Below the pieces are notes generated by a model. That model was not told where the DNA came from, ran no database searches, and saw nothing but the letters and a program-made list of their open reading frames with translations. A DNA stretch of 64,000 nt from positions 62,001-126,000 of the forward strand of contig NZ_RCNR01000006.1 in assembly GCF_009725985.1 (NCBI RefSeq), in the 5' to 3' direction. This stretch comes from Zobellia amurskyensis. GTDB lineage: Bacteria; Bacteroidota; Bacteroidia; Flavobacteriales; Flavobacteriaceae. Shown here piece after piece: positions 12,634 through 41,270 of the stretch (positions are counted from its first letter, which is position 1; every line of letters starts with the position of its first letter). The translations under genes were made by a program, and so were the position numbers.

Positions 12634-13417
12634 CGTTTGTTAATAAGATTTCCTTGAAACCTTTCGGTATTTTATACGGAAAGTTCATGGGTTGGTCAAA
12701 TTCTATATTTTTATACTCTATATCTACCGTATTGCGGTCTTCCCCTTCAATAGCAGCAACAGCAATACGTTGCGGAAGAATATATTTACCAATTTTCTGA
12801 TAATCGGTGTAGTTCACTTGCAGTAATCTCTTCTTTAAAGGTTGAGATAATTGTTGTGAAGCCATCTTGAAATTTTTAGGTTCTATTTGAAACATCACCT
12901 TAAAAAGCTCCATGGTTTTCTTTGGCTTTAACTGATAATCGCCATTTATTACGGATGCATCATACTTTCCCTCTCTTAAGTTGAAAAGCGCCTGGCCCAT
13001 TAACAGGTTCTGCACCTGCTCAAAGTCTAGCTCGGTGCCCAAAAACTTGCTTAAGTAAGCAAAATCACCATCAAAATACTCGTTTTGCAATTTATTATAA
13101 AAAGTAACCCTACCCGGAGTAATATAGGCTTTGACCATGCCAAGGGGTGCACTCATCCAAATAGCTTTATCCTTTTCCATTCGTAAACTAACGGAAACTC
13201 CTTGGGACGATTCCCCATCAGAATAATCGATCCGCATTTTACCGCTTAACGTGTTAAAATTGGTCGTATTTGCATAATGATTTCGAACAATCGCTTTCGC
13301 AGAAAGATTGCCGTCAACCTTTCCATCGGCCAACACCTTTGTAGATTTACAGGAAAGAAAAAATGAAAGTGAGACCAACGCCATCAAGCGCAAGACAATT
13401 CGTAAGGGTAACGCCAT
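12623..13417 (-). CDS. DUF4292 lipoprotein
   Basis: The 264-residue protein carries a lipoprotein signal (LSFFLSCKSTK; Cys at about residue 23) and matches the DUF4292 family, which resembles the LolA/LppX fold. Conserved-looking parts include NFNTLSGKMRIDY, ISMSAPLG-like IWMSAPLGMVKAY and FPYKIPKGFKEI. It is probably a periplasmic or outer-membrane lipid- or lipoprotein-handling factor, but this has not been shown. It lies between a TPR gene (14 bases upstream) and the EnvC-like gene (11-base overlap), a common flavobacterial order that suggests an envelope role. Confidence 0.88.
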   Translation of the reverse strand: MALPLRIVLRLMALVSLSFFLSCKSTKVLADGKVDGNLSAKAIVRNHYANTTNFNTLSGKMRIDYSDGESSQGVSVSLRMEKDKAIWMSAPLGMVKAYITPGRVTFYNKLQNEYFDGDFAYLSKFLGTELDFEQVQNLLMGQALFNLREGKYDASVINGDYQLKPKKTMELFKVMFQIEPKNFKMASQQLSQPLKKRLLQVNYTDYQKIGKYILPQRIAVAAIEGEDRNTVDIEYKNIEFDQPMNFPYKIPKGFKEILLTNDAR

Positions 13418-13431
13418 AATCTTTGTAAAGT

Positions 13432-14373
13432 TTAAAACCCAGGTTTTATCTTACGAAGATACATATTTGCCTTGACTGAATTGTTAATGGAATTATAAGC
13501 ATCTGCCAGTTCCTGATAAAATTTATTGGCCAGTGCAATATCTCCCACAAGATAATCCAACCCAGTTTCCAAAGCCTCAATGGCCTCACGCGGTTTGGCC
13601 TTTTTGTTAAATGCATAGCCTTGAGCATAGTAAAAATAGGGTTGAGACGGGTAACTCTCCAAGGCCTCTTCCGCAACTTGGTCCAAAGCCAAATAGTGGT
13701 TGGCCCTAAGCATACCTTGAATCTGGGCCTTATATTGTTCAAAAGAGCCAGATTCTGCTCTGTTTTCATTGGTAATTGTAAACGAACTACTTGTGATTGC
13801 AGCTTGCTGGGTCTCGATCAAGTCTTCAACTTTAACAGAGAGCTGTTGTGTAAAACTAGATTTTGGAGTCTCCCTAAGGACGGATTGCGCAGCTTTTGCC
13901 TTACCTTTTCGGTAATAGACTAACGCCAAGTTTTCTTTAAATTTCGCATTATCAAAAGGCAGCTGTTCTTTATTTTCTTCAACAGACTTTTGCTGTTTTT
14001 GCAATATTTCAACATACGTGTTAGTGTACCATAAATTGTCCGGTTCGGCCAGTAACGCTGTTAAAGCATACGCTTCCGCAACAGGATACTTTTTTTCATT
14101 CAGATACAATTGAGCAAGCTCATGGTCTACCACATAATTAGCGGCATCCAATTGTTTGCATTCTAGCATAAGGTTGATGGCCCTATCGTAATTCTCAATA
14201 CCCTTTTGCTTTAGGGCATCAAAAAATTTGTCCTGAAAATCATCTGAATAGTCCTCCAGAAAAAGTTCCGCACTCTGATTTTCATTTATTTCAGGCGTTT
14301 CTTGGGCACAGACAGATAAGGTGATAAGAAAAAATCCCCCGAAAAAAGTCGATACAATTGGACTAGTTTTCAT
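13432..14373 (-). CDS. Periplasmic tetratricopeptide-repeat protein
   Basis: The 313-residue protein has a signal peptide ending near VCAQE (residue 24) and then helical repeats of TPR type. Examples are AQLYLNEKKYPVAEAYALTA, ALVYYRKGKAKAAQSVLRE and LADAYNSINNSVKANMYLRK. TPR proteins act as scaffolds; the partner is unknown. It is co-directional with, and close to, the DUF4292 and EnvC-like genes, so a shared task in envelope assembly is likely. There is no lipobox, so it is expected to be soluble in the periplasm. Confidence 0.85.
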   Translation of the reverse strand: MKTSPIVSTFFGGFFLITLSVCAQETPEINENQSAELFLEDYSDDFQDKFFDALKQKGIENYDRAINLMLECKQLDAANYVVDHELAQLYLNEKKYPVAEAYALTALLAEPDNLWYTNTYVEILQKQQKSVEENKEQLPFDNAKFKENLALVYYRKGKAKAAQSVLRETPKSSFTQQLSVKVEDLIETQQAAITSSSFTITNENRAESGSFEQYKAQIQGMLRANHYLALDQVAEEALESYPSQPYFYYAQGYAFNKKAKPREAIEALETGLDYLVGDIALANKFYQELADAYNSINNSVKANMYLRKIKPGF

Positions 14374-30820: not shown

Positions 30821-31738
30821 CTATTTCAAGAGACTATCCATTAACTTTTTATGATAGCCCGGAACTACATCATAGCAGTACTTAACCGGAAAACCTTCCT
30901 TCTTATCACATAATAAATATGACTTGAATACCTCTTTTACGTTAGTTTTAACCGTGTCATCTTGGTGTATCTCTAGTCGTGCGTTCAAATATTCCGATAT
31001 AATATCTTCCGGAGCTATAATGTAGTGGCTCGCCAGCACATCAAACGGATTGAAACCTTCTGCACCTTGGTCTACCCATTGCTGTAACCATGCTCGTGAA
31101 GCCTCTGCCAACCATTGGTTGCCTTTATCTCCTTTTGCCAAAGCATCCAAATCCTCTGCCTTAACCCAAACCTTGTTGGAAATCTCAAACGGACATAATG
31201 TTACTGGAACACCATGTTCGAACATTAATCGAAACGCATCATTGTCCAGATCAAAATTGAGGTCTTGTGCGTGGTTCCCTTTATTACCGATTTTAAAGTA
31301 ATCCTGAGCAGTTCTACGACCTGCAACAAGAACCACTTCCTGTATTTTATTCTTTAGCTCAGGGTATTTTAAAAGCAACAGACCAACATTGGTTGCGGGA
31401 CCAATGGCCATAATAATCATAGGTTGCTTTTGGAGCGCTTCCGCCAAGGCTTCTACCGCTTCATTACTCTTCACCTCTCTTAAGTTTATAGCTTCTCCTG
31501 CTCCTCTAAAAACAGGTATTTCACCCAAAGCAAAATCTGAACTCATCTGTTTGCTCAGCGGGTATGAGTTCTCGATAAGGGTATTACCAAAAACAGCGCT
31601 GATACCGCATATTTCAATATTGTCCGCTTTCATCAATTGCAAGACGGCATAGCCATCATCTACATCACAGTAACCATCGCGCTTATGCCTTGTCATCCCA
31701 ACCGAAAGATCGGTGTCTATCCATACCTTTTTCTTCAT
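30821..31738 (-). CDS. Nucleoside hydrolase family protein with an insertion in the metal site
   Basis: Members hydrolyse the N-glycosidic bond of nucleosides using a Ca2+ held by an N-terminal DxDxxxDD motif. Here the motif is split: WIDTD at residues 6-10 is followed by about a dozen extra residues (LSVGMTRHKRDGYC) before DVDDGYAV. Other family parts remain, such as IMAIGPATNVGLLL, a DLNFDLDNDAFR segment and HYIIAPEDI late in the chain. The second of two start Met codons (31738) is used here. It follows the ABC ATPase gene by about 30 bases on the same strand, so it is likely to act on the imported compound. The substrate is unknown. Confidence 0.88.
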   Translation of the reverse strand: MKKKVWIDTDLSVGMTRHKRDGYCDVDDGYAVLQLMKADNIEICGISAVFGNTLIENSYPLSKQMSSDFALGEIPVFRGAGEAINLREVKSNEAVEALAEALQKQPMIIMAIGPATNVGLLLLKYPELKNKIQEVVLVAGRRTAQDYFKIGNKGNHAQDLNFDLDNDAFRLMFEHGVPVTLCPFEISNKVWVKAEDLDALAKGDKGNQWLAEASRAWLQQWVDQGAEGFNPFDVLASHYIIAPEDIISEYLNARLEIHQDDTVKTNVKEVFKSYLLCDKKEGFPVKYCYDVVPGYHKKLMDSLLK

Positions 31739-31772
31739 CATTCTCTATGAATTATATTTTTCCTTCTTTGTA

Positions 31773-32492
31773 TTACTTCAATCCGCCCCAGAATTCAATT
31801 TCACTTTGAACGCCAGTTTGCGGGTCCTGAATAAAATCTTTCTTATCCTCGTATACTTTCAAAACTCCATCTTGCATAAAACCAATTTGATTGCCCATCA
31901 GTACCGCTTCTTTTAAATCATGGGTTACGAAAAGTGATGTAATATCAAATTCTTCAGTCAACTTTTTAAATAGCTCTTGCATCCGTTGTCTTGTGCCCGT
32001 ATCTAAACTTCCAAAAGGTTCATCCAATAAAAGCAGTGAAGGATTCGTACTTATGGCACGACCAAACGACACCCGTTGTCTTTGCCCTCCAGAAAGCTGG
32101 GTTGGCATTTTGTCCGCCTGTCCTTCCAATTCAAGGCTATGTAGCATGTGCTGGACCTTTTCCTTTATTAAACCTTCCGGTATTTTTTTAATCCTCAACC
32201 CAAAAGCAATATTTTCAAAAGCATTTAAATGCGGAAATAATAGGTCTTCTTGATAGAGATATACGATATTCCGTTTCTCTGGTTTGGTTTCTGTAATATC
32301 AACACCGTTCAAAAGTATCTTACCAGAATCGGGTGAAATTAGTCCTCCAATAGTTTTAAGCATAGTGGTCTTGCCACAACCAGATTTTCCCAAAATACTC
32401 AAAGTCTGTTTTGCTTGCAGCGAAAAACTCAGGTCTTTGACTACCTTTTCGGCACCAAAACTTTTTACAATATGTTGTACCTCAAGAAACAT
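31773..32492 (-). CDS. ynjD: ABC importer ATPase, YnjD-like
   Basis: This 239-residue ABC ATPase has Walker A GKSGCGKTT (about residues 33-41), signature LSGGQRQRVSFGRA, Walker B LLLLDEPFGSLD and the switch His in FVTHDLKEA. The sequence is typical of importers for Fe3+, thiamine or polyamines. Its ATG overlaps the stop codon of the permease gene (TGATG), so translation is coupled. With two permeases and a YnjB-like binding protein it forms a complete importer. Confidence 0.94.
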   Translation of the reverse strand: MFLEVQHIVKSFGAEKVVKDLSFSLQAKQTLSILGKSGCGKTTMLKTIGGLISPDSGKILLNGVDITETKPEKRNIVYLYQEDLLFPHLNAFENIAFGLRIKKIPEGLIKEKVQHMLHSLELEGQADKMPTQLSGGQRQRVSFGRAISTNPSLLLLDEPFGSLDTGTRQRMQELFKKLTEEFDITSLFVTHDLKEAVLMGNQIGFMQDGVLKVYEDKKDFIQDPQTGVQSEIEFWGGLK

Positions 32493-33265
32493 CAGACCAA
32501 TTTTTTAAATACATAACGTTTATTAAAATACAACAAAACTACGGGTGGAAAAATCAATAAACAACAACTTAGAGCTCCATAATAATAGTTAGTCTCCTTA
32601 ATGAACAAGAACACCTTTATAGTAAGTGTCTGTACCTTTCCGATACCAATGATAGACGTTAGTCCATATTCGAACCAAGAAATCAGAAAGGTTTGAAAAA
32701 AGCAGATAAGTAAAAGACCTTTTGCTAACGGCAACAATACCTTTGTATAGGTCTGCCACTTATTTCCGCCCAAAGTGGCTACCAAATCTTCATAGCTCTT
32801 TACTTTTTCGTTCCAAAAACTACTGAAAAATAGCAGTGCATAGGGAAAAGCAATAATGAACTGAGCCACAACAACTCCAGTCATGTTTCCAAAAAGACCC
32901 ATTTTCAAAAAGAAAAAACTAAGACAAGCGGCAAAAACTACAGGGGCCAATATGTATGGAAAATAAGCCAACAAGGTTAAGGTTCTTTTCTTTGGGTGAT
33001 AAAAAACTGCTTTACTGATTAAAAATCCTGAGGTAGTAGAAAATATGGCCACCGACAGTGATATTAATAATGATGAGAAAAAACTTTGCAAAAGTCCCGT
33101 TTCTGAACCAAAAACCGTAACCCAGTTTTTAAAGCCAATATAAGACGGCAAAACATCTGGAAAACGCCATTCCGATGCCAATGACAAAAATACGAGGTAC
33201 ACGAACGGAAATAGAATTAACAGCACCGCGAGACTCAAGACAAAGGGTTTCCAGTTAATTCGCAT
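32492..33265 (-). CDS. ABC importer permease, YnjC-like second subunit
   Basis: This inner-membrane permease of the BPD_transp_1 family has about six helices. The coupling motif (EDLVATLGGNKWQTYTKVLL) contacts the ATPase. A longer frame begins at 33316, but ATG at 33265 gives a normal N-terminus (MRINWKPFVLSLAVLL) and an 11-base overlap with the previous gene. In E. coli YnjC is one fused protein with two permease halves; here the halves are separate genes. It works with the adjacent permease and ATPase. Confidence 0.9.
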   Translation of the reverse strand: MRINWKPFVLSLAVLLILFPFVYLVFLSLASEWRFPDVLPSYIGFKNWVTVFGSETGLLQSFFSSLLISLSVAIFSTTSGFLISKAVFYHPKKRTLTLLAYFPYILAPVVFAACLSFFFLKMGLFGNMTGVVVAQFIIAFPYALLFFSSFWNEKVKSYEDLVATLGGNKWQTYTKVLLPLAKGLLLICFFQTFLISWFEYGLTSIIGIGKVQTLTIKVFLFIKETNYYYGALSCCLLIFPPVVLLYFNKRYVFKKLV

Positions 33266-34109
33266 AAGCTCTATTCTTTTTTGGAAGAAATAGTACAATT
33301 GCAGCAATTGAAACAATTAGCGTGTATAGTACGGCAACCACGTATCCCTCCGAAATTTTATCCAAATCGTATTGTTTTATTTCTTGTATGATGAGTACCG
33401 ATAGCATTTGCGGCGATTCCTGACCTAAAATTAATGGTACTTCATATGCTCCTAGCAAAAAAATAAAATAGAGTACAATTAGCACCCAAGTCTTTTTGAT
33501 GAGAATAGGTAGAAAAACCCGTTGTGTAATCTGATTGGCACTTGCTCCAAGGGACTGTGCCAATATTGAGAGTTCTTCAACTCGCTCGTTTTTGTAAACA
33601 TTTAAAAAAAGCAGCACAAAGAAGGGCATAATCATGGTGATAAAAGAGAATATAATCCCAATTGCCAAACCATCATTTACTAAATCCGGGAATTGTGAAG
33701 CCTCTGTAATGAAACCTAATTTATGACTGATACGAGCGAAAAAGCCTCCTTTAGAAAACAATTGAAACGTAAAAAATCCGGTAACAATACCCGGTATTGC
33801 CAATGGTAAATAAATTATAAAAGATAGAAATCTCTTTTCCAGTTGTTCCCTGAATTTTAATGTGATCCACAGTGCCCCACCCACTGAAATGAGTACTGCT
33901 ACCAATGCAATCATGAAGCTATACCTCAAGGAGGTGAAAAAAGTACCTGAAGCTAAAACAGATTCCCAAAACTGGAAGGTAAAGCCATTATTGGCTACAC
34001 CGATTACCCCAAAACTATACAATAGGGCATATACAAAAGCTGCGGCAAAAGGCACTACACCTACCAACACGAACAACAGAATTCCTATGTTTGGTTTTTT
34101 AATTTTCAA
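33255..34109 (-). CDS. ABC importer permease, YnjC-like first subunit
   Basis: This is a 284-residue BPD_transp_1 permease with six helices and the EAA-type coupling loop RVEELSILAQSLGASANQIT followed by QRVFLPILIKK. It overlaps the binding-protein gene by 11 bases at its start and the second permease gene by 11 bases at its end. The pair would form the membrane channel of the importer. Confidence 0.92.
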   Translation of the reverse strand: MKIKKPNIGILLFVLVGVVPFAAAFVYALLYSFGVIGVANNGFTFQFWESVLASGTFFTSLRYSFMIALVAVLISVGGALWITLKFREQLEKRFLSFIIYLPLAIPGIVTGFFTFQLFSKGGFFARISHKLGFITEASQFPDLVNDGLAIGIIFSFITMIMPFFVLLFLNVYKNERVEELSILAQSLGASANQITQRVFLPILIKKTWVLIVLYFIFLLGAYEVPLILGQESPQMLSVLIIQEIKQYDLDKISEGYVVAVLYTLIVSIAAIVLFLPKKNRAYAN

Positions 34110-35322
34110 TTACTTTTTTTCTAAAGTCTTCATACAACCGTATCATATATTCGGGAGCGGGCTCTGCAATGGCATTAACTTCCAACTGCTTTAGCGTTGG
34201 GCCATATTGGCGTTTTCTTGCCTCTAAGAATTTATCTTTCCATTCCAGGTCTAACTTATCCATGGCTAAAACCGTATTGGAATCCATTCCGTTGGCATCC
34301 GCTTTTTTTAGTTGCGCCTCTGGAGATAGCAAAAAGTTAATAACCTGCATGGCTCCCGATTTTTGAGGTGAATTATGGAGGATTCCTAAGTAATTTGAGT
34401 TTCTTATGGTACCATTTTCCCATGCATAGCCCTTGGTTGTTTTAGGATAAAGACCGTTCAGTACTTTATCTTCAATACCACCTTCACTAAAACCATAGGC
34501 AATAAGTAATTCTCCATTGGCATAAAGCTGATTCATCTTGGATTGTTCCTTTGGAAAAGTGCGTCCTTCTTTCCAAAAATACTGTTTGTTATCGTTTATA
34601 AAACTCCAAAGTTTTTCAGATAGTTGATTGTACTTTTTTTCATTGAAAGGGCCGTCCAGAACATTAGGTTCACCGCCCAATTCCGCCAATAAACTTTTCA
34701 AAAGGGTCATACCCGTAAAATCATTTGAAATTGTAAAGGTTCCTGGATGCTGTTTAATGAAATTTTCAAGTTCGGGAATGCTTTTAGGAGGGTTGGGAAC
34801 TTTTTCATAATCGTATACGATTGCAAATTGATTAATGCTCCACGGGGCTTCCATACCGTTTACAGGTTGCTGAAAATCAGTATTGATGAATGCATCCTCA
34901 AAATCAATTAGAGAGGCATTAGGAAGCTGTTCTACAAACGGACCCCATAGTCCATCAACCTTTCTCAATTGAAAAAACGTCTCCCCATTTATCCAAACCA
35001 TGTCTACTTGACCTTCATAAATATTTGCCTGCTTCTCCCCCATAACCAATTGGACGATTTCAGGTCCCTGACCACCACTAATCTGTAAATCGATATTGTA
35101 CTTTTCCTTTACACTGGGTACTACGTAATTATTGATATAATCATTAATGGCCGTGCTACCTTGCCACATCATAAAATTAACGGTAGTGCCATTAGCTTTG
35201 GCTTCTACTTCCTCCCATGGCGCACTCTTTAGCTTTTCATCATCTTGCTTTGATTTCTCACCGCAAGAAAGCACCATTAAACTCAATAAAAAACCGAAAA
35301 GTATATAATAAATTTTCTTCAT
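34099..35322 (-). CDS. ynjB: YnjB-like ABC substrate-binding lipoprotein
   Basis: This extracytoplasmic binding protein resembles E. coli YnjB, whose ligand is unproven (thiamine has been proposed). YnjB-like segments are VDMVWINGETFFQLR, GMEAPWSINQFAIVYDYEKV and PKSIPELENFIKQHPGTFT. It carries a lipoprotein signal (LMVLSCGEKS; Cys at residue 20 from the chosen ATG). I use ATG 35322 because it gives a compact signal peptide; an ATG at 35343 would add seven polar residues. It lies directly after the SusD gene on the same strand. Confidence 0.9.
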   Translation of the reverse strand: MKKIYYILFGFLLSLMVLSCGEKSKQDDEKLKSAPWEEVEAKANGTTVNFMMWQGSTAINDYINNYVVPSVKEKYNIDLQISGGQGPEIVQLVMGEKQANIYEGQVDMVWINGETFFQLRKVDGLWGPFVEQLPNASLIDFEDAFINTDFQQPVNGMEAPWSINQFAIVYDYEKVPNPPKSIPELENFIKQHPGTFTISNDFTGMTLLKSLLAELGGEPNVLDGPFNEKKYNQLSEKLWSFINDNKQYFWKEGRTFPKEQSKMNQLYANGELLIAYGFSEGGIEDKVLNGLYPKTTKGYAWENGTIRNSNYLGILHNSPQKSGAMQVINFLLSPEAQLKKADANGMDSNTVLAMDKLDLEWKDKFLEARKRQYGPTLKQLEVNAIAEPAPEYMIRLYEDFRKKVIEN

Positions 35323-35404
35323 TGAAAATGTTTCTGTTTGCATTATGGTTCACTTGGTCGTTTACTATATTCTAACCTTTAAAAGATATCGTTGAAATTC
35401 TCAC

Positions 35405-36847
35405 TTATTCTTTTTCCCACCACCCTTTACTATTAATATTATCGCCTCCTATGCGTTCAGCAGCCACCTTGTAATTTACACTGTTGGTGGCCTGTTCAGA
35501 CTCAGGGTATAAATACCGAACGGGATATTTATTGTCGTTCAAGTTATCAGGCCCTGGTTTTAAGCTGGGAATACCCGTTCTACGTACATTAAACCAAGCT
35601 TCGTGTCCATTTGAAATTAAGCTGAACCACTTCTGAGTTAAAATCTTGTTGAGATTATCCGTTCCGTTAAGGGCAATCGCTTCTTGAACAAGGTATCCTG
35701 CAGGAACCTCAACACCGTAATATGCAAAACTAGCTCTAACACCCGTTTCATAATAGGATTGTACATCGCCTGTGATATAACCTCTTTCTGCAGCTTCCGC
35801 CAATGCAAATTGCACCTCTGAGTATTGCATAAACTGCGCATCAACCCCATCAGGCACATCCCTAAAAATAGCTCCGAACAAAGAAACGTCATTTAAATCA
35901 ATTCCCTTTTCCGCAATGGTCTCTCGGTCCTGACCATTCATTAAACCCTTAAATTCCGGTGTTCCTGAATTAACACTTACTTGAGTAGGTTTGTACAGAA
36001 CGTTCGCCCTTGGGTCGTTCCATAACGTTAATACAGAATCTACCGTAGTAGTCATACGGTGTTCCTGATACAATCCCAAAGACGACAAAGTCATAGGGTA
36101 TTGGTTGGGTGCAGACGTTAAATAAGGCAAGACAGCGTTATCTTCATTTGATTGCATTAGTTTGCCAGATAAAGCCAACGCTTGAATCTCCGAATAATCC
36201 GTTAACCGTTTGCTAATGCGCATAAGGTAGCGTAGACGTAAAGAATTGGCAAAACGCATCCACTTATTAAGGTTTCCGTTAAAAAGTACATCTCCATTAA
36301 TTGTGGCATTGGAATTTTCCAATGTTGCTGCAGCGCGTTCTAAAACGGCCAAAATACCAGTATCAGGATCCGTGTAAATACTTTCCTGCGTGTCATAAGC
36401 CGGTGTAAATTGTCCGTCTAGTGCATTTACGGCTTCGGTATAAGGAACATCGCCCCACATATCCGTAAGTTGAGAGAACAGAAAACTCTGCATAACATCA
36501 CCTACTGCGTTATAAGCTTCATTGGAACCTTGTAATTCCCGCATCGATTTGATATCGCTCAATAACTGAAAAATAGTATTCCAGTACTCGCTATTTGTAC
36601 CCATCTCGTAACGGTCAATCCTTTCAAATTCTACACTAGCTGCAAATTGCTGAATGTAATTTGCCAAGCGAAACCCTTGGTAAAAAGCATTTTGGTCTGC
36701 TTCCACCGAAATAACGTTCGCCAACAAAAATTGTGGGTCTACAGCTTCAGGCGAATTGGGGTTTTCATTGAGTTCATCAAACTCGTCTGTACAACTGCCC
36801 AAAAACAGGACAAAACTCGTGAGACCTAATATATATAGTTTATTCAT
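35405..36847 (-). CDS. SusD/RagB-family outer-membrane lipoprotein
   Basis: This surface nutrient-binding lipoprotein forms the lid of a SusC transporter. From ATG 36847 the signal is MNKLYILGLTSFVLFLGSCT, with Cys at residue 19. An ATG at 36874 would put nine residues before it and is less likely. The sequence resembles the SusD-like type 2 group (NPNSPEAVDPQFLLAN near the start, and AEAAERGYITGDVQSYYE with the TPR-like helices). It lies 13-40 bases after SusC and before the ABC binding-protein gene. The ligand is unknown. Confidence 0.93.
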   Translation of the reverse strand: MNKLYILGLTSFVLFLGSCTDEFDELNENPNSPEAVDPQFLLANVISVEADQNAFYQGFRLANYIQQFAASVEFERIDRYEMGTNSEYWNTIFQLLSDIKSMRELQGSNEAYNAVGDVMQSFLFSQLTDMWGDVPYTEAVNALDGQFTPAYDTQESIYTDPDTGILAVLERAAATLENSNATINGDVLFNGNLNKWMRFANSLRLRYLMRISKRLTDYSEIQALALSGKLMQSNEDNAVLPYLTSAPNQYPMTLSSLGLYQEHRMTTTVDSVLTLWNDPRANVLYKPTQVSVNSGTPEFKGLMNGQDRETIAEKGIDLNDVSLFGAIFRDVPDGVDAQFMQYSEVQFALAEAAERGYITGDVQSYYETGVRASFAYYGVEVPAGYLVQEAIALNGTDNLNKILTQKWFSLISNGHEAWFNVRRTGIPSLKPGPDNLNDNKYPVRYLYPESEQATNSVNYKVAAERIGGDNINSKGWWEKE

Positions 36848-36886
36848 TGTTCTAATTTTTTGTATTCCTATCATGATTCCTTCGTC

Positions 36887-39800
36887 TTAAAAATCGGTTT
36901 TAATGTTAAATCCGAAACTTCGGGTAGAAGGATATGAAAAGTCTTCCACACCATAAACGATACGCTGTCCCTGCAAGGCATTCAGCTCTGGGTCAAAATG
37001 AGGGTTTTCGGTAAACAATAATAAATTGCTACCAATCAATCCCAGTTTTATATTCTGAAAACCTATAGACTTTGATAATTTTTTAGGGAAGTTATAGTAC
37101 AACCCAACTTGCCGCAGCTTTACATAAGACGCACTGTACAATGCGCTGTCTTCATTACCACGGTCAAAAAAGTTGTTGTAAAACTGACTTGCAGGTACCG
37201 AGGTGGTATTAGCAACATACTGCGGGCTATCCACCGTACCAACATTCACTACACCATTACCAATAACACCGTCTTCACGACCTACCAAAGTTTCTTGCAA
37301 AACACCGGAAGTACTTCCCAAAGCCTTAATTCTAGAAACAATAGTCCCACCTTTTCGCCAATCGAAAAGGATAGTCATATCAATATTTTTATAGGAGAAC
37401 TTATTATTGAAGCCTACCGTAAAATCTGGATTATAATTCCCTAGAAGTCGTAAGTTTCCGTCTTGCACAGGCAGACCATTAGCCCCAAAAACGGTTTGGC
37501 CATCTACTTCTAGAAAACCAGTACCGTACATATCGCCAACGCGACCATTTTCCCTTGCGATATAAAAAACGGTATTAGAACCACCACCACCCGAAAAAAT
37601 ATCCGCAGTACCCGTTACAAACTGATCTACACCATCTGGCAATTTGGTTACCTCACTTCTGTACGTAGAATAATTTACAGATGATTCCCAACTGAAGTCT
37701 TCCGAACGAACCACTTCTGCACTTATTAAAGCCTCAAAACCTCTTGTTCGTACCTCACCACCGTTAACATTAAAGTTTGAAAAACCACTGGTCTGCGATA
37801 TAGGTCTTGAAATGATCTGGTCAATACTGGTATTCTGATATCCTGCAAGATCTAATTGAAATCTTCCGTTAAAAAACCATGCTTCCAAACCAGCTTCAAG
37901 CGCATTCAAACGTTCCGGTCTTAGATTGGCATTCTTTAAAACTGTTTCATTGGTTACCCGAAAACTGGACCCGTAATTCTGATTAAAAACAAAGTTTTGT
38001 ACATTTTGGTATGGGTCTGTATCGTTACCAACACTAGCCGCACTAAATCTCAGATTCAGGTACGAAACAGCTTCGGGCAACGTAAACATATTACTTACCA
38101 CATAGCTAAGCCCTGCCGAATAATAGCCAAAAGAATTACTATCACTAGGTAATGTACTACTCCAATCATTTCTAAAAGTAGCATCAAAATAAAGTGAATT
38201 TTTATAGGAAAGGTTTCCACTAGCGTAGACACTATTGATGCGCTTATTTAACTTTTGACTATCTCCTTTTAACGGTGTTCTTGAATTGGCCAAAGTATAA
38301 ATACCAGGAATTGCCAATTGGGAGGCTTCGGAAAATTTATATTGAATGTCCTGATCAAAACGGTTGGCACCTGCCGATATATTGTATTTCCAATCGGCAT
38401 TGATTTTATCCGAATAGGAAAGCAAAACATCCGTATTCAGTTCCCTAAAACGAACATCATCCTCACGATACGTACCCAACGGATTCTGATTGGTACTTAC
38501 TGCACGACGGAATTCCCTTTTATCATCATAGGTATCAATACCGGCACGAACACTTAAACTTAACTTGTCCGTTATATCATAGGTGGCCGAAGCATTCCCT
38601 AAAATTCGGTTTTTATTAAAGCTATTGGTGTTTTCATAAACCGTTAGATAGGGGTTGGTCAGCCATAGGTAATTAAAATCATAATGCTGAATGCCTTCTT
38701 GGCCTGCCTGCCAATAGTTCTTTAACGACTCAACGTTTGTGTTTCTGCCAGTCCAGTTAAACCCATAAAGCGGATTTTCATAACCATAGCCCAAATTAGG
38801 TCTGTTACCACTGCGGGTATTGATATAGTTCAAGAAAGCTTTGACTTTAAACTTTTCATGTACATTTTGGTCTATACTAAGAGCCAACCCGTTTCTTTTT
38901 AAGTCCGTATTGGGTACAATACCGTCGTTCTTTAAATTGCTATAAGACAATCGTGCACTTCCTTTTTCTCCGCCTGTGCTAATGGATATGTTGTTTTGAT
39001 AGGTTACGCCCGTTTCAAAGAAATTACGAACGTTGTCCGGTCTGGACACCCAAGGTGTAGCCGTTATATCCGTAAATGAACCATCTGGTCTGGTACGAGA
39101 AATGACATCACCCGCACGAACTGGGTTTCCATCAATATCTACGGAAGGACTATCAAACTGAGCTATAAATTGACCTTGGTCCAAACGCGGTCCATAACTA
39201 CTAATTCCGCCGTCGTTTACACCGGCTCCAATTCCGTTTTGAAAAGCATACGCACCATTAGAACCTCCACCATACTCATTTTGATAATCAGGCAAGGTCA
39301 ATAAACTCTCTACCGTTAATGTACTGTTAATACTGATACCAAGTCCCTTTTTCTTTCCACCTCTCTTTGTGGTAATAACTACCACTCCATTTGCTGCCCG
39401 TGCACCGTACAAGGCTGCCGAACCCGCTCCTTTAAGAATGGAGATAGAAGCAATATCATCAGTACTAATATCAGCTCCGCCATTACCAAAATCCACTTCT
39501 TGGAGCGCGCCATCATTTACAAGGTTACTCGTGATTTGCTCATTACTTACAGGAACCCCGTCAACCACAAACAAAGGCTGGTTGCTTCCGCCTAAGGAGT
39601 TCTCTCCTCTAATAACTATACGAGATGAAGACCCTACTCCTGATGAGCCGTTCGTAATCTGAACACCCGCCACACGTCCGGCAAGACTGTTTACCATATT
39701 GGTAAGGGGTACTTCCGTTAGTTGTTCTGCCTTTACGGTTGTTACGGCAGAAACTAAGGATTGCTTTTCCCGCTCAATTCCCAAAGCGGTAACAACAATT

Positions 39801-40105
39801 TCATCTAGTTGTTCAGAAGACAGTTCCATTACGATTACTTCGGGCAGGCTTCCGTTAACCGTCGCAGTTTCTTTTGTTATATATCCAATAGATGCAATAC
39901 TGACCGTAAAATTTGTGGCTTCGGTCTGTAGCGTAAAAAATCCTAATTCATCCGATACTACATAATTATTGGAGCCTAACTCGTTCACCGTGGCATAAGG
40001 CACAGGTTGGTTATCAGTATCCATTATTTTTGCAGTGTATGAATTGGTTTGGCCATATGCCAATATTGTACATAGCTGCATAAGCGCTATTATAGCTATT
40101 TTCAT
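36887..40105 (-). CDS. SusC/RagA-family TonB-dependent receptor
   Basis: This is an outer-membrane TonB-dependent transporter of 1072 residues. It has a signal peptide (ending YGQT), a carboxypeptidase-regulatory-like domain at about 22-95, a plug at about 105-230 (VTALGIEREKQSLVSAVTTV, RGENSLGGSNQPLFVVDGVP, and ARAANGVVVITTKRG), and a beta-barrel ending in phenylalanine (GFNIKTDF). It forms the SusC/SusD complex with the next gene. The start is ATG 40105; a TTG at 40108 is an artefact. A 9-base-stem hairpin lies in its leader. TonB-ExbBD are not in the window. Confidence 0.96.
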   Translation of the reverse strand: MKIAIIALMQLCTILAYGQTNSYTAKIMDTDNQPVPYATVNELGSNNYVVSDELGFFTLQTEATNFTVSIASIGYITKETATVNGSLPEVIVMELSSEQLDEIVVTALGIEREKQSLVSAVTTVKAEQLTEVPLTNMVNSLAGRVAGVQITNGSSGVGSSSRIVIRGENSLGGSNQPLFVVDGVPVSNEQITSNLVNDGALQEVDFGNGGADISTDDIASISILKGAGSAALYGARAANGVVVITTKRGGKKKGLGISINSTLTVESLLTLPDYQNEYGGGSNGAYAFQNGIGAGVNDGGISSYGPRLDQGQFIAQFDSPSVDIDGNPVRAGDVISRTRPDGSFTDITATPWVSRPDNVRNFFETGVTYQNNISISTGGEKGSARLSYSNLKNDGIVPNTDLKRNGLALSIDQNVHEKFKVKAFLNYINTRSGNRPNLGYGYENPLYGFNWTGRNTNVESLKNYWQAGQEGIQHYDFNYLWLTNPYLTVYENTNSFNKNRILGNASATYDITDKLSLSVRAGIDTYDDKREFRRAVSTNQNPLGTYREDDVRFRELNTDVLLSYSDKINADWKYNISAGANRFDQDIQYKFSEASQLAIPGIYTLANSRTPLKGDSQKLNKRINSVYASGNLSYKNSLYFDATFRNDWSSTLPSDSNSFGYYSAGLSYVVSNMFTLPEAVSYLNLRFSAASVGNDTDPYQNVQNFVFNQNYGSSFRVTNETVLKNANLRPERLNALEAGLEAWFFNGRFQLDLAGYQNTSIDQIISRPISQTSGFSNFNVNGGEVRTRGFEALISAEVVRSEDFSWESSVNYSTYRSEVTKLPDGVDQFVTGTADIFSGGGGSNTVFYIARENGRVGDMYGTGFLEVDGQTVFGANGLPVQDGNLRLLGNYNPDFTVGFNNKFSYKNIDMTILFDWRKGGTIVSRIKALGSTSGVLQETLVGREDGVIGNGVVNVGTVDSPQYVANTTSVPASQFYNNFFDRGNEDSALYSASYVKLRQVGLYYNFPKKLSKSIGFQNIKLGLIGSNLLLFTENPHFDPELNALQGQRIVYGVEDFSYPSTRSFGFNIKTDF

Positions 40106-40138
40106 CAAAATTCAATAAAGGGTTGTTATTTGTTTTAT

Positions 40139-40176
40139 GAAAAGGAGAATGCCATACTATTACGATGCTCCTTTTC
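40139..40176 (-). promoter_or_regulatory. Hairpin in the SusC leader
   Basis: On the minus strand GAAAAGGAG and CTCCTTTTC form a perfect 9-base stem with a 20-base loop, 33 bases before the SusC ATG. AGGAG in the stem resembles a ribosome-binding sequence. No T-run follows. It could be regulatory or an mRNA stabiliser. Confidence 0.4.
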
Positions 40177-40196
40177 TAGCCCAAGTAAGACTTAGA

Positions 40197-40907
40197 CTAT
40201 GCTGCAAAAAGAATTGCAGGCGGACCTCTTAATTGAAAAGAAGATGAATAGGTATCTGAAAAGAAAAATGTTCTTGACTGAAAGGCACGGTTTGTGAAGA
40301 CCGTTAAATGCTTCAAGATGAAGTCTACTAGAATAACATCATCGGAACTATATAAAAATTGATGTAAGGCATGAGTGGTATCAATATCCGAAAGTTCATC
40401 AAAGTAATAGGCTTTCCCCTTTTTCCAGAAAACGCCGTTTACTAGCGTATTGAACAAAGTATCCTGCAGCCAAGGCAGTGCCTTAAATTCATTTAAGTTG
40501 AAGAATTCACGATGCATCCCCAACAAATAAACCCCTCCGTCTGTTGCAGGGCCAATAACCAAATCATTATTCTGAATACGGTCAACTGCCTGCTCAAGCA
40601 CACTGGCGGTCAAATCCGGCGTATCGTTACCAATAGATAACACTTTGGTATACCCTTGGTCAAAAAGCTCTTGAAAAGCGTTGGCATAACGTTCTCCAAA
40701 TGATGTTCCTTTCTGTAAACTTTCGTCTATTACAAAAACATCTGCCTTTGTGGAGGTTGCAATTTCATGGGTGCGGTTAATAAGGATATCAAAAAATCCT
40801 TTAGAAGATTTTTTGTTGCGTTTACCAAAAAGCGACTTCCGTTCTGCTTCCAGCTGTGCCGAAAGCGAGAATATTAATATCGCCGTATCCTTAAGTGTTT
40901 GCCCCAT
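40197..40907 (-). CDS. DUF2064 family glycosyltransferase-like protein with unusual C-terminal tail
   Basis: Residues 1 to about 175 match the DUF2064 (TIGR04282) family, with the fold of GT-A nucleotide-sugar enzymes: SIGNDTPDLTASVLEQAVDR, VIGPATDGGVYLLGMHREF and DELSDIDTTHAL. The remaining 60 residues are not usual for the family and end in FQLRGPPAILFAA. I recall similar endings in small proteins encoded just before TonB-dependent receptors in flavobacteria. It lies 92 bases upstream of SusC on the same strand, divergent from the TetR gene. Its link to the uptake locus is unclear. Confidence 0.8.
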   Translation of the reverse strand: MGQTLKDTAILIFSLSAQLEAERKSLFGKRNKKSSKGFFDILINRTHEIATSTKADVFVIDESLQKGTSFGERYANAFQELFDQGYTKVLSIGNDTPDLTASVLEQAVDRIQNNDLVIGPATDGGVYLLGMHREFFNLNEFKALPWLQDTLFNTLVNGVFWKKGKAYYFDELSDIDTTHALHQFLYSSDDVILVDFILKHLTVFTNRAFQSRTFFFSDTYSSSFQLRGPPAILFAA

Positions 40908-41270
40908 TTACCAACTTTCGTCGTAATAGTTTTTCAACCTTACTCAACTTTTGAGTGCAAGATACTAAAGAAGGGGTGACTGTTCGCCTTACTTGTGTGC
41001 ATTTTCTTACAATATGTATTATGCTTCTAATGGCTCATTTGATGACCAACACTATTACTTTCTATTACGCTCAACTGATTTTTGCTCGGTAATCGGCACC
41101 TATTTACCGACCACGTGGTTTGTAGGTCACTCGTTGAATAACGTCATATTAAACGATTTAGGTCTTTTAACGAAAAATTTGGTCAGACAACCCCTCATTC
41201 CTAACATAGCCTTCCCTGCTGCGGTTCTTTGTATGAGACCCAACGGTCTGTTTAACCCAAATCTAAAATT
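40908..41270. promoter_or_regulatory. 363-bp divergent regulatory region between DUF2064/SusC and tetR
   Basis: The region has no convincing coding frame; an ORF at 40993-41274 overlaps the tetR start and looks spurious. It contains two GACC-type inverted repeats, at 41109-41120 (GACC-ACGT-GGTT) and at 41236-41249 (AGACC-CAAC-GGTCT). The second is 21 bases before the tetR ATG. These are candidate TetR operators. Confidence 0.5.
41236..41249. promoter_or_regulatory. Candidate TetR operator in front of tetR
   Basis: AGACC and GGTCT are perfect 5-base arms around CAAC, 21 bases upstream of the ATG. This is the usual place for an autoregulatory operator. Confidence 0.45.

Follow-up and report, generated by a model that had tools for sequence, protein, structure and literature searches.

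Gene content of the Zobellia locus

A co-directional block on the minus strand of Zobellia amurskyensis encodes SusC, SusD, a YnjB-type lipoprotein, two permeases, an ATPase and a nucleoside hydrolase, and lies within a 64-kb window (the whole stretch of DNA analysed, 64,000 nucleotides). Zobellia is a seaweed-associated marine bacterium. ORF, Pfam and NCBIfam matches bear out the gene set, order and shared direction given for the block in an earlier note on this DNA. The unit begins one gene before SusC, with a DUF2064 gene upstream (40907-40197), and no glycoside hydrolase gene is found within the block.

40197..40907, minus strand: DUF2064 gene (TIGR04282-like), first of the unit; PF09837 83 bits, TIGR04282 96.7 bits, below the cut-off of 134
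40108..40200, minus strand: hairpin-forming gap between DUF2064 and SusC; MFE -23 kcal/mol, z -3.5
36887..40105, minus strand: SusC/RagA-type TonB-dependent outer-membrane transporter; TIGR04056 589 bits against a cut-off of 368, TIGR04057 signature
35405..36874, minus strand: SusD-like outer-membrane lipoprotein (SusD-like_2); PF12771 298.5 bits, lipobox GSC in the translation
34099..35343, minus strand: YnjB-type solute-binding lipoprotein; NF008633 366 bits against a cut-off of 203, lipobox LSCG, Cys27
33255..34109, minus strand: ABC permease 1, TTG start; PF00528 (BPD_transp_1) 35.2 bits, gene order conserved
32492..33316, minus strand: ABC permease 2; PF00528 (BPD_transp_1) 31 bits, gene order conserved
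31773..32492, minus strand: ABC ATPase; PF00005 124 bits
30821..31741, minus strand: nucleoside-hydrolase family enzyme (IU_nuc_hydro); PF01156 114.8 bits against a cut-off of 34.2

The SusC ORF is called from a TTG at 40108, with an alternative ATG at 40105, the start adopted in the earlier note. A gap of 12 bp separates SusC from SusD, and the TIGR04056 score above cut-off beside a SusD neighbour identifies a SusCD/RagAB pair. The binding protein exceeds the curated NF008633/PRK11622 cut-off, which assigns the ABC genes to the YnjBCD importers; its gene probably starts at an internal ATG at 35322. The overlaps previously described within the ABC part are real: the binding-protein gene and permease 1 overlap by 11 bp, permeases 1 and 2 by 62 bp as called, or by 11 bp from the more likely ATG start of permease 2 at 33265, and permease 2 and the ATPase gene have 1 base in common. 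When the gap between DUF2064 and SusC was folded in four relatives, three showed a hairpin at the same place (z -2.5 to -3.5) and the fourth gave z -1.5; the hairpin is possibly a partial terminator or processing site.

YnjBCD-like transporters carry old annotations that suggest thiamine or a related vitamin, and this set of binding protein, permeases and ATPase belongs to the broad class that also includes ThiBPQ. The ATPase falls below the cut-off for each of the 25 NCBIfam families listed, out of 186 matched, and scores 156.8 bits against a ThiQ cut-off of 245. No Rfam family reaches its gathering score within the 64-kb window, the TPP riboswitch included, and Pfam or NCBIfam scans of neighbouring genes, covering part of the loci's ORFs, show no thiamine gene. 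The small ribosyl compound in the ligand class of the earlier note is upheld, and the vitamin finds no support in the Rfam and ThiQ results; uptake of thiamine or a related vitamin has a next to negligible probability.

Conservation of the block

Conservation was counted over 26 loci found via the binding protein. SusCD lies at the same locus in 22/26 and the hydrolase in 20/26, frequencies that set the block far from chance; a kinase is adjacent in 14/26. The core genes are not scattered in relatives but stay together in many Bacteroidota, among them three genera from outside Flavobacteriaceae (Marivirga, Portibacter and Membranihabitans). This conservation supports the earlier proposal of a complete two-membrane route that ends in a riboside-cleaving enzyme. 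In two Pricia genomes (L005; L022 and L050, which are one genome) the permeases have neither ATPase nor hydrolase beside them. The patatin gene downstream appears to be a local neighbour: of the 26 loci, only four from Zobellia, that of Kriegella and one from Pricia have it close to the block. In a second architecture, TBDR-YnjBCD-rSAM, hydrolase and kinase are both absent.

SusCD/RagAB pairs serve glycan and peptide uptake. The Zobellia pair resembles these Bacteroidota importers in its adjacent SusC (TIGR04056) and SusD-like lipoprotein, but a complete ABC importer and an enzyme of riboside-hydrolase type come after it. The ABC part resembles E. coli ynjBCD in its NF008633 binding protein and in the order of binding protein, permease and ATPase. 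In a Shewanella relative the permease is a single fused protein of 570 aa, whereas Zobellia has two separate permease genes. Unlike its E. coli counterpart, the block is linked to SusCD, a hydrolase, a kinase and arsenosugar-pathway genes; E. coli, one of the control genomes, has no TIGR04283 match.

The hydrolase and its kinase partner

The hydrolase retains the motifs DTD/DVDD, GPATN, NFDLDN and NPFDVLA, which place it in the nucleoside hydrolase family and whose Asp/Asn residues we take to be metal- and ribose-binding. Its structure model matches RihA and ZmNRh2b, and no signal peptide is seen in its sequence; it is predicted to be a cytoplasmic riboside hydrolase.

Salvage of queuosine or queuine would pair a QueK-like hydrolase with a protein like the queuine lyase QueL, itself a radical SAM enzyme, and a radical SAM gene belongs to 6/26 loci. 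Experimental characterization of QueK as a nucleoside hydrolase of queuine salvage is described in one paper, which lists an ABC transporter family as an untested candidate (PMC11130926). The radical SAM query has no match among 21 genomes from Zobellia and its relatives, in a search run without a positive control, and queuosine leaves the kinase, the arsS replacement and DUF2064 unaccounted for. We regard this route as improbable.

In many relatives a methylthioribose-kinase-like gene follows the hydrolase gene. The Zobellia block locus lacks this partner, which is present elsewhere in the same genome at the head of a separate operon with rhodanese, TIGR04282, nucleoside phosphorylase, DUF547 and TIGR04283 genes. 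TIGR04282 and TIGR04283 there (G000:C5) score 215.9 bits (cut-off 134) and 231.1 bits (cut-off 182), respectively; the arsenosugar names of both are NCBIfam labels rather than functional tests. All 41 kinase loci examined carry a riboside hydrolase gene (L006 and L051 are from one genome): the KIN loci adjoin a nucleoside hydrolase in 18/18 cases, and the KINz loci (23/23) have either a secreted nucleoside hydrolase next to them (10) or, no more than 12 kb away, an ADP-ribosylglycohydrolase-like gene (13).

The kinase aligns with methylthioribose kinase 2olc (E 4.7e-12) and retains HGD, DPEF and IRR-GLA. The L006 kinase, the one scanned against NCBIfam, reaches 103.7 bits for TIGR01767 against an MtnK cut-off of 275, so the kinase is only MtnK-like. 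Methylthioribose kinase is nonetheless its nearest relative, and a nucleosidase with a kinase is the logic of methylthioadenosine salvage; another 5-substituted riboside (5-methylthioribose, methylthioadenosine, 5'-deoxyadenosine or another heteroatom sugar) could enter the same pathway. The Zobellia genes would resemble that salvage in riboside cleavage followed by a methylthioribose-kinase-like enzyme, but differ from it in a nucleosidase of the nucleoside hydrolase family, in the low kinase score and in MtnA, the next methionine salvage enzyme, which is absent in 29/30 genomes, Zobellia included (8/14 control genomes exceed the cut-off). Such a ligand also leaves the ArsS replacement described below unaccounted for, unless the pathway is not about arsenic, and we consider it quite unlikely.

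Co-occurrence with arsenosugar genes

Published work describes ArsS as adenosylating arsenic and working together with ArsM on the first steps towards arsenosugars (PMC12159101; PMC8552651). Zobellia amurskyensis has no ArsS above the TIGR04167 cut-off (best match E 3.6e-6) and no arsenosugar-ArsM (NF038099) at E <= 1e-20, and the latter is found in 0/9 genomes of the genus. Like the ArsM-ArsS route (Synechocystis; NF038099, TIGR04167), Zobellia has the downstream TIGR04282, nucleoside phosphorylase, DUF547 and TIGR04283 genes; unlike it, Zobellia would use import, hydrolase and kinase in place of synthesis.

Across 299 Flavobacteriaceae genomes, counted by eye, TIGR04283 is present in 203, and 187 of these have ArsS. 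The 16 without ArsS have the kinase in 14 cases and YnjBCD in the other two. Kinase frequency is 14/16 without ArsS against 18/187 with it (Fisher p 3e-11, uncorrected for relatedness), and ArsS is missing from 7/9 YnjB genomes against 9/194 others in the TIGR04283 set (p 1.5e-7, likewise uncorrected). In 25 named YnjB genomes, at least three of which are also among the 299, TIGR04283 occurs in 25/25, the kinase in 22/25, ArsS in 4/25 and arsenosugar-ArsM over its cut-off in 2/25.

The kinase is also found in 5/96 genomes without TIGR04283, which, with the 18/187 ArsS-positive genomes, suggests that the kinase-ribosidase pair may have a wider use. General scavenging of nucleosides or ribosides, in which the block would import ordinary nucleosides, the kinase would yield ribose-1-phosphate or a similar sugar phosphate and the ArsS link would be indirect, for example through shared ecology, draws on these pairs away from arsenosugar genes, and on the nucleoside-hydrolase motifs and the RihA and ZmNRh2b matches. 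It leaves unaccounted for the presence of TIGR04283 in 25/25 and of ArsS in only 4/25 named YnjB genomes, as well as the same-site arsS replacement and the shared DUF2064 gene. We judge it unlikely.

Replacement at the same chromosomal sites

At shared chromosomal positions the block takes the place of arsS and, in one pair, of arsM as well. Two genomes of one genus (G080 and G289) have both flanks in common around arsS in the first and DUF2064-SusC-SusD-SBP-PM1-PM2 in the second; G289 is one of the two Pricia genomes without ATPase and hydrolase beside the permeases. Another congeneric pair (G042 and G263), again with both flanks in common, has arsS, with arsM inside the operon, against DUF2064-TBDR-YnjBCD-rSAM. 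In G032 the site of the window block is occupied by DUF2064-arsS. DUF2064 lies within 12 kb of arsS in 5/19 arsS loci by a strict criterion that misses a divergent copy at L045. An importer at the sites of arsenosugar-making genes in several relatives suggests uptake of ready-made arsenosugars rather than their making. Three features that the earlier note missed point to an arsenosugar-type riboside: the kinase partner, DUF2064 and the arsS/arsM replacement.

The pattern has exceptions. ArsS is retained in 4/25 YnjB genomes, two of which also have arsenosugar-ArsM. ArsM, ArsS and YnjBCD all occur together in G288, arsS lies in YnjBCD's own gene row in G063 (L045), and G199 has YnjBCD with both ArsS and TIGR04283 absent. 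The SusCD pair that adjoins arsS and arsM in G010 (L082) is a more distant one. Outside Flavobacteriaceae, TIGR04283 mostly does not adjoin TIGR04282 or the phosphorylase.

Proposed function

We give about even chances to a salvage role for the block: it would take up a 5-substituted riboside already made elsewhere, most likely an algal arsenosugar, and pass it into the arsenosugar pathway as a substitute for de novo synthesis. The putative salvage role has good comparative support, with the exceptions above. Gene content, order, conservation, co-occurrence and the arsS replacement are observed; arsenic, the reactions and the direction of flow are what we infer for this route. The compound would cross the outer membrane via SusC/SusD, and the YnjB-type lipoprotein would hand it to the two-permease/ATPase importer for intact entry into the cytoplasm, where the nucleoside-hydrolase-family enzyme would cut the ribosyl bond. 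The methylthioribose-kinase-like enzyme would then phosphorylate the freed 5-substituted ribose at C1. The resulting sugar-1-phosphate would be identical to the one that arsenite and SAM otherwise yield through ArsM, ArsS and the phosphorylase.

The likeliest ligand would be an algal dimethylarsinoyl riboside; thiamine, methionine salvage and queuosine fit worse than algal arsenosugar import. Against an arsenosugar, the algal compounds are O-ribosides and the nucleoside hydrolase family is known for N-ribosides. One source states that, apart from a few brown species, algae turn most inorganic arsenic into arsenosugars, which greatly exceed inorganic arsenic in most macroalgae (PMC5387034). Among the titles and abstract openings of a literature search, no arsenosugar importer or salvage route in bacteria was found. 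More tentatively, at somewhat under even chances, algae-associated and other marine Bacteroidota may have repeatedly dropped arsM/arsS to import algal arsenosugars via SusCD and a YnjBCD-type importer, re-entering the pathway by a dedicated riboside hydrolase and sugar-1-kinase. If so, organoarsenic sugars would be a shared good that passes from algae to bacteria and is used in the receiving cell.

The replacement pattern offers a testable ligand for a conserved SusCD/ABC system and its YnjB-family binding protein, and proposes a step for the hydrolase and the kinase. The pattern also suggests that bacteria value the end product of the ArsS pathway highly enough to switch between making its precursor and importing it; such a switch would open the bacterial role of arsenosugars to experiment. 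The earlier hope of defining the ligand of E. coli YnjB finds no support: among 14 control genomes TIGR04283 occurs only in Synechococcus elongatus, so the ligand of E. coli YnjBCD may be a different one.

The binding-protein structure model (pLDDT 89) has a fold of sugar-binding-protein type and matches SmoF (7ofy; Z 27.1, 3.0 Å over 328 residues) at 11% identity; that identity, and a tie with many other sugar-binding proteins, mean that no ligand can be read from the fold. Sulfoquinovosyl-glycerol uptake by SmoF and its ABC importer offers a parallel in the shared binding-protein fold, and the proposed ligand would likewise be a modified sugar on glycerol.

Organization of the import block

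The import block lies in the window, which covers positions 62001-126000 of contig C6 in the Zobellia amurskyensis genome (G000), and its genes follow one another in transcription order:

Minus strand: DUF2064 gene
Minus strand: SusC gene
Minus strand: SusD gene
Minus strand: YnjB-type binding lipoprotein gene (SBP)
Minus strand: two permease genes (PM1 and PM2)
Minus strand: ATPase gene
Minus strand: nucleoside-hydrolase-family gene

The earlier note described a SusCD pair followed by a YnjBCD-type importer and a nucleoside hydrolase; its gene coordinates and order are correct, and the observation is upheld. The DUF2064 gene upstream of SusC also belongs to the unit. The downstream patatin gene and the PaaE-like, TetR, and glycosyltransferase-9 neighbours were considered as members and rejected as flanks of the chromosomal site, because such flanks enclose other contents in relatives. 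No signal peptide is visible by eye in the hydrolase, which fits delivery of an intact riboside by the ABC importer.

A strong hairpin (z -3.5) separates DUF2064 from SusC at 40108-40200 of the window (minus strand). Hairpins occupy the equivalent place in L003, L006, and L019, some with different stem sequences, and a weaker one is present in L004; the structure may be a partial terminator or mark a processing site. Upstream of DUF2064, TTTA(G/C)TATCTTGC and TTACGAC (approximately 40918-40970, minus strand) are kept in the window and five aligned Zobellia relatives, the former resembling a Bacteroidota -7 element.

Conservation across bacterial genomes

Searching bacterial genomes with the binding protein yields 26 loci, distributed among Zobellia, Pricia, Kriegella, Maribacter, Leeuwenhoekiella, Christiangramia, Marivirga, Portibacter, Membranihabitans, and Cryomorpha, as well as several metagenome assemblies and a single distant Shewanella. 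The closest named loci are all from Zobellia (84-89% binding-protein identity). SusCD is found at 22/26 loci, the hydrolase at 20/26, and DUF2064 at 23/26 by a loose criterion or 19/26 by a stricter one, bearing out the conservation that the earlier note had proposed to check. Spacing between the core genes is mostly short or overlapping. A methylthioribose-kinase-like gene (the kinase) directly follows the hydrolase at 14 of the 26 loci, and a radical SAM gene is present at six. In two Pricia genomes (L005, and L022, which is the same genome as L050), the block stops after the second permease, and the ATPase and hydrolase are not adjacent.

In the Shewanella locus (L026), the gene row around the YnjB-like gene includes genes for a fused permease, a CDP-alcohol phosphatidyltransferase, a VTT-domain/reductase fusion, and a fatty-acid-hydroxylase-like protein. 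L045 also has a hydroxylase-like gene of this sort, as does L068 when judged by eye.

Replacement of arsS and arsM

What is new here is the replacement of arsS and arsM by the import block. Flavobacteriaceae frequently arrange the pathway genes as arsS, rhodanese, TIGR04282, phosphorylase, arsM, DUF547, and TIGR04283, with all seven genes within 12 kb at 9/19 arsS loci (L058, L059, L061, L065-L069, and L079); 14 arsS-centred stretches were hand-chosen from the ArsS search matches. Three site comparisons place the import block where arsS otherwise sits. Within one genus, G080 and G289 match on both flanks (49-95% and 72-86% identity), yet the intervening space holds arsS in G080 and DUF2064-SusC-SusD-SBP-PM1-PM2 in G289. 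In a second congeneric pair, G042 and G263 share four left genes (66-71%) and the right side from rhodanese to TIGR04283; the insert is arsS plus one unmatched 259-aa ORF in G042, whereas G263 carries DUF2064-TonB receptor-SBP-PM1-PM2-ATPase-...-radical SAM and is also without arsM. At the window's own site, G032 has DUF2064-arsS between the same flanks. G203 has DUF2064-SusC-SusD-hydrolase-kinase at this site, without the ABC part.

By genome content only, a further congeneric pair agrees, with arsS and arsM in G010 versus YnjBCD and neither ars gene in G242. Two other same-genus pairs depart from the pattern. G063, which holds arsS and YnjBCD in one gene row and lacks arsM, follows it part-way at most relative to G279 (arsS and arsM). 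G288 is an exception that combines YnjBCD, ArsS, and arsenosugar-ArsM and does not follow the exchange pattern against G077 (arsS and arsM).

A SusCD pair can also neighbour arsS itself: in L082 (G010), arsS-arsM-DUF2064 is followed by a more distant SusC/SusD (42% and 37%) and, by eye, a symporter look-alike. L083 and L093 carry a 372-aa phosphate-permease look-alike (by eye) between arsM and DUF547 of the arsenosugar operon, and L083 has a 119-aa kinase remnant beside that operon.

Genome-wide co-occurrence

Of 299 Flavobacteriaceae genomes, 203 have TIGR04283 and 214 have ArsS over its cut-off. The tally takes TIGR04283, ArsS at E < 1e-40, and the kinase at E <= 1e-20, and was counted by eye and recounted; G292 (ArsS E 1.5e-50) is taken as ArsS-positive, and the count of the other ArsS-positives equals the 214 that are over cut-off. 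ArsS accompanies TIGR04283 in 187 genomes, leaving 16, seven with YnjBCD and nine without it. The kinase is found in 14 of these 16 versus 18 of the 187 ArsS-positive genomes (Fisher p 3e-11, relatedness ignored), and the two ArsS-less genomes without a kinase (G242 and G263) carry the receptor-YnjBCD-radical SAM form. Every TIGR04283 genome (203/203) thus has ArsS (187), the kinase (14), or YnjBCD (2).

When YnjB is set against ArsS in the full set of 299 genomes, a simple test gives p 9e-4, with two weak matches (G253 and G298) left out of the YnjB-positive set. Ten genomes have a strong YnjB match; eight lack ArsS, nine lack arsenosugar-ArsM, and nine have TIGR04283. The 25 named YnjB genomes, which represent the 26 loci minus Shewanella L026, comprise TIGR04283 in 25/25, the kinase in 22/25, arsenosugar-ArsM over cut-off in 2/25, and, contrary to the replacement pattern, ArsS in 4/25. 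This set and the 299 genomes are not independent, since at least three genomes are common to both (G313, G318, and G334 have coordinates identical to G001, G129, and G289). Arsenosugar-ArsM is found in none of nine genomes of the window's genus. G199 is an exception in which YnjBCD is present and TIGR04283 absent, and in most cases beyond Flavobacteriaceae neither TIGR04282 nor the phosphorylase adjoins TIGR04283.

The kinase partner and the putative ligand

The kinase is nearest to 5-methylthioribose kinase, yet it falls under that family's curated cut-off. Aligned with 2olc, the Bacillus enzyme, it keeps the HGD, DPEF, and IRR-GLA segments. In Zobellia the gene stands away from the window locus:

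G000:C5:7965-9161: methylthioribose-kinase-like gene

It is followed by genes for an ADP-ribosylglycohydrolase-like lipoprotein, rhodanese, TIGR04282, purine nucleoside phosphorylase, DUF547, and TIGR04283; TIGR04282 and TIGR04283 are both over cut-off and are named by NCBIfam as arsenosugar biosynthesis glycosyltransferases. A riboside hydrolase gene is present at all 41 kinase loci examined (L006 and L051 being one genome), so the most likely substrate of the kinase is the free sugar that riboside cleavage yields. At loci of the cluster type the hydrolase is adjacent in 18/18, while the 23 loci of the other type comprise ten with an adjacent secreted nucleoside hydrolase and 13 with an ADP-ribosylglycohydrolase-like gene within 12 kb. 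Hydrolases paired with this other type have, by eye, signal-peptide-like starts.

Methylthioribose import for methionine salvage is unlikely despite the kinase's nearest family, because MtnA, the next enzyme of that pathway, is absent in 29/30 chosen genomes (L017, L024, and L025 excluded). YnjBCD is often linked to thiamine. Thiamine import is nonetheless unlikely, as the family scores of the transporter do not fit, and an Rfam search of the 64-kb window returns no match over the gathering score. The earlier note's guess of a small ribosyl compound is right in outline, and its vitamin option finds no support.

AlphaFold models, built from alignments of only 23 sequences for the binding protein (pLDDT 89) and 18 for the hydrolase (pLDDT 86), have the expected folds but point to no ligand. 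A sequence search for solved structures of the binding protein finds no match. Its fold search returns many close binders of sugar, polyamine, iron, hexose-phosphate, and others, and with such differing ligands no ligand is readable from the fold.

Given the replacement of arsS and arsM, arsenosugar salvage becomes the leading, testable reading of the block, with an arsenosugar as the putative ligand. Zobellia species live with macroalgae. Most macroalgae contain little inorganic arsenic relative to arsenosugars, a few brown algae excepted (PMC5387034); titles of papers cited there give the name of one algal arsenosugar as a dihydroxypropyl 5-deoxy-5-dimethylarsinoyl riboside. ArsS adenosylates arsenic (PMC12159101) and shares the opening steps of arsenosugar biosynthesis with ArsM (PMC8552651). 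De novo, a phosphorylase acting on the ArsM/ArsS nucleoside would give 5-deoxy-5-dimethylarsinoyl-ribose-1-phosphate. In salvage, a ready-made riboside would be imported, hydrolysed, and then phosphorylated by the methylthioribose-kinase-like enzyme; the same sugar-1-phosphate would result because 5-methylthioribose and 5-dimethylarsinoyl-5-deoxyribose are similar in shape. The strongest competing explanation is scavenging of ordinary nucleosides. Arsenosugars are O-ribosides and the nucleoside-hydrolase family is known to act on N-ribosides, a misfit to the salvage reading.

A second architecture with a radical SAM gene

In L025 and L045-L049, and in L024 at a contig edge, a TonB receptor other than SusC precedes YnjBCD and a radical SAM gene, without hydrolase or kinase. 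This architecture may handle the imported compound differently, and its radical SAM protein might be an alternative to ArsS. A sequence search for solved structures gives one weak match for this protein. Queuosine salvage through QueK/QueL, considered in view of the hydrolase and the radical SAM gene, fits badly: the kinase suits it poorly, it leaves the arsS replacement unexplained, and the radical SAM query has no match in 21 genomes in a search without a positive control.

The radical SAM gene of L045 and that of L048 lie directly 5' of rhodanese-TIGR04282-phosphorylase. L048 also contains, at 12839-14108, two adjacent genes of approximately 215 aa that match no Pfam or NCBIfam family at E 0.001; they separate the ATPase gene from one for an ArsM-like methyltransferase, and L024 has look-alikes by eye.
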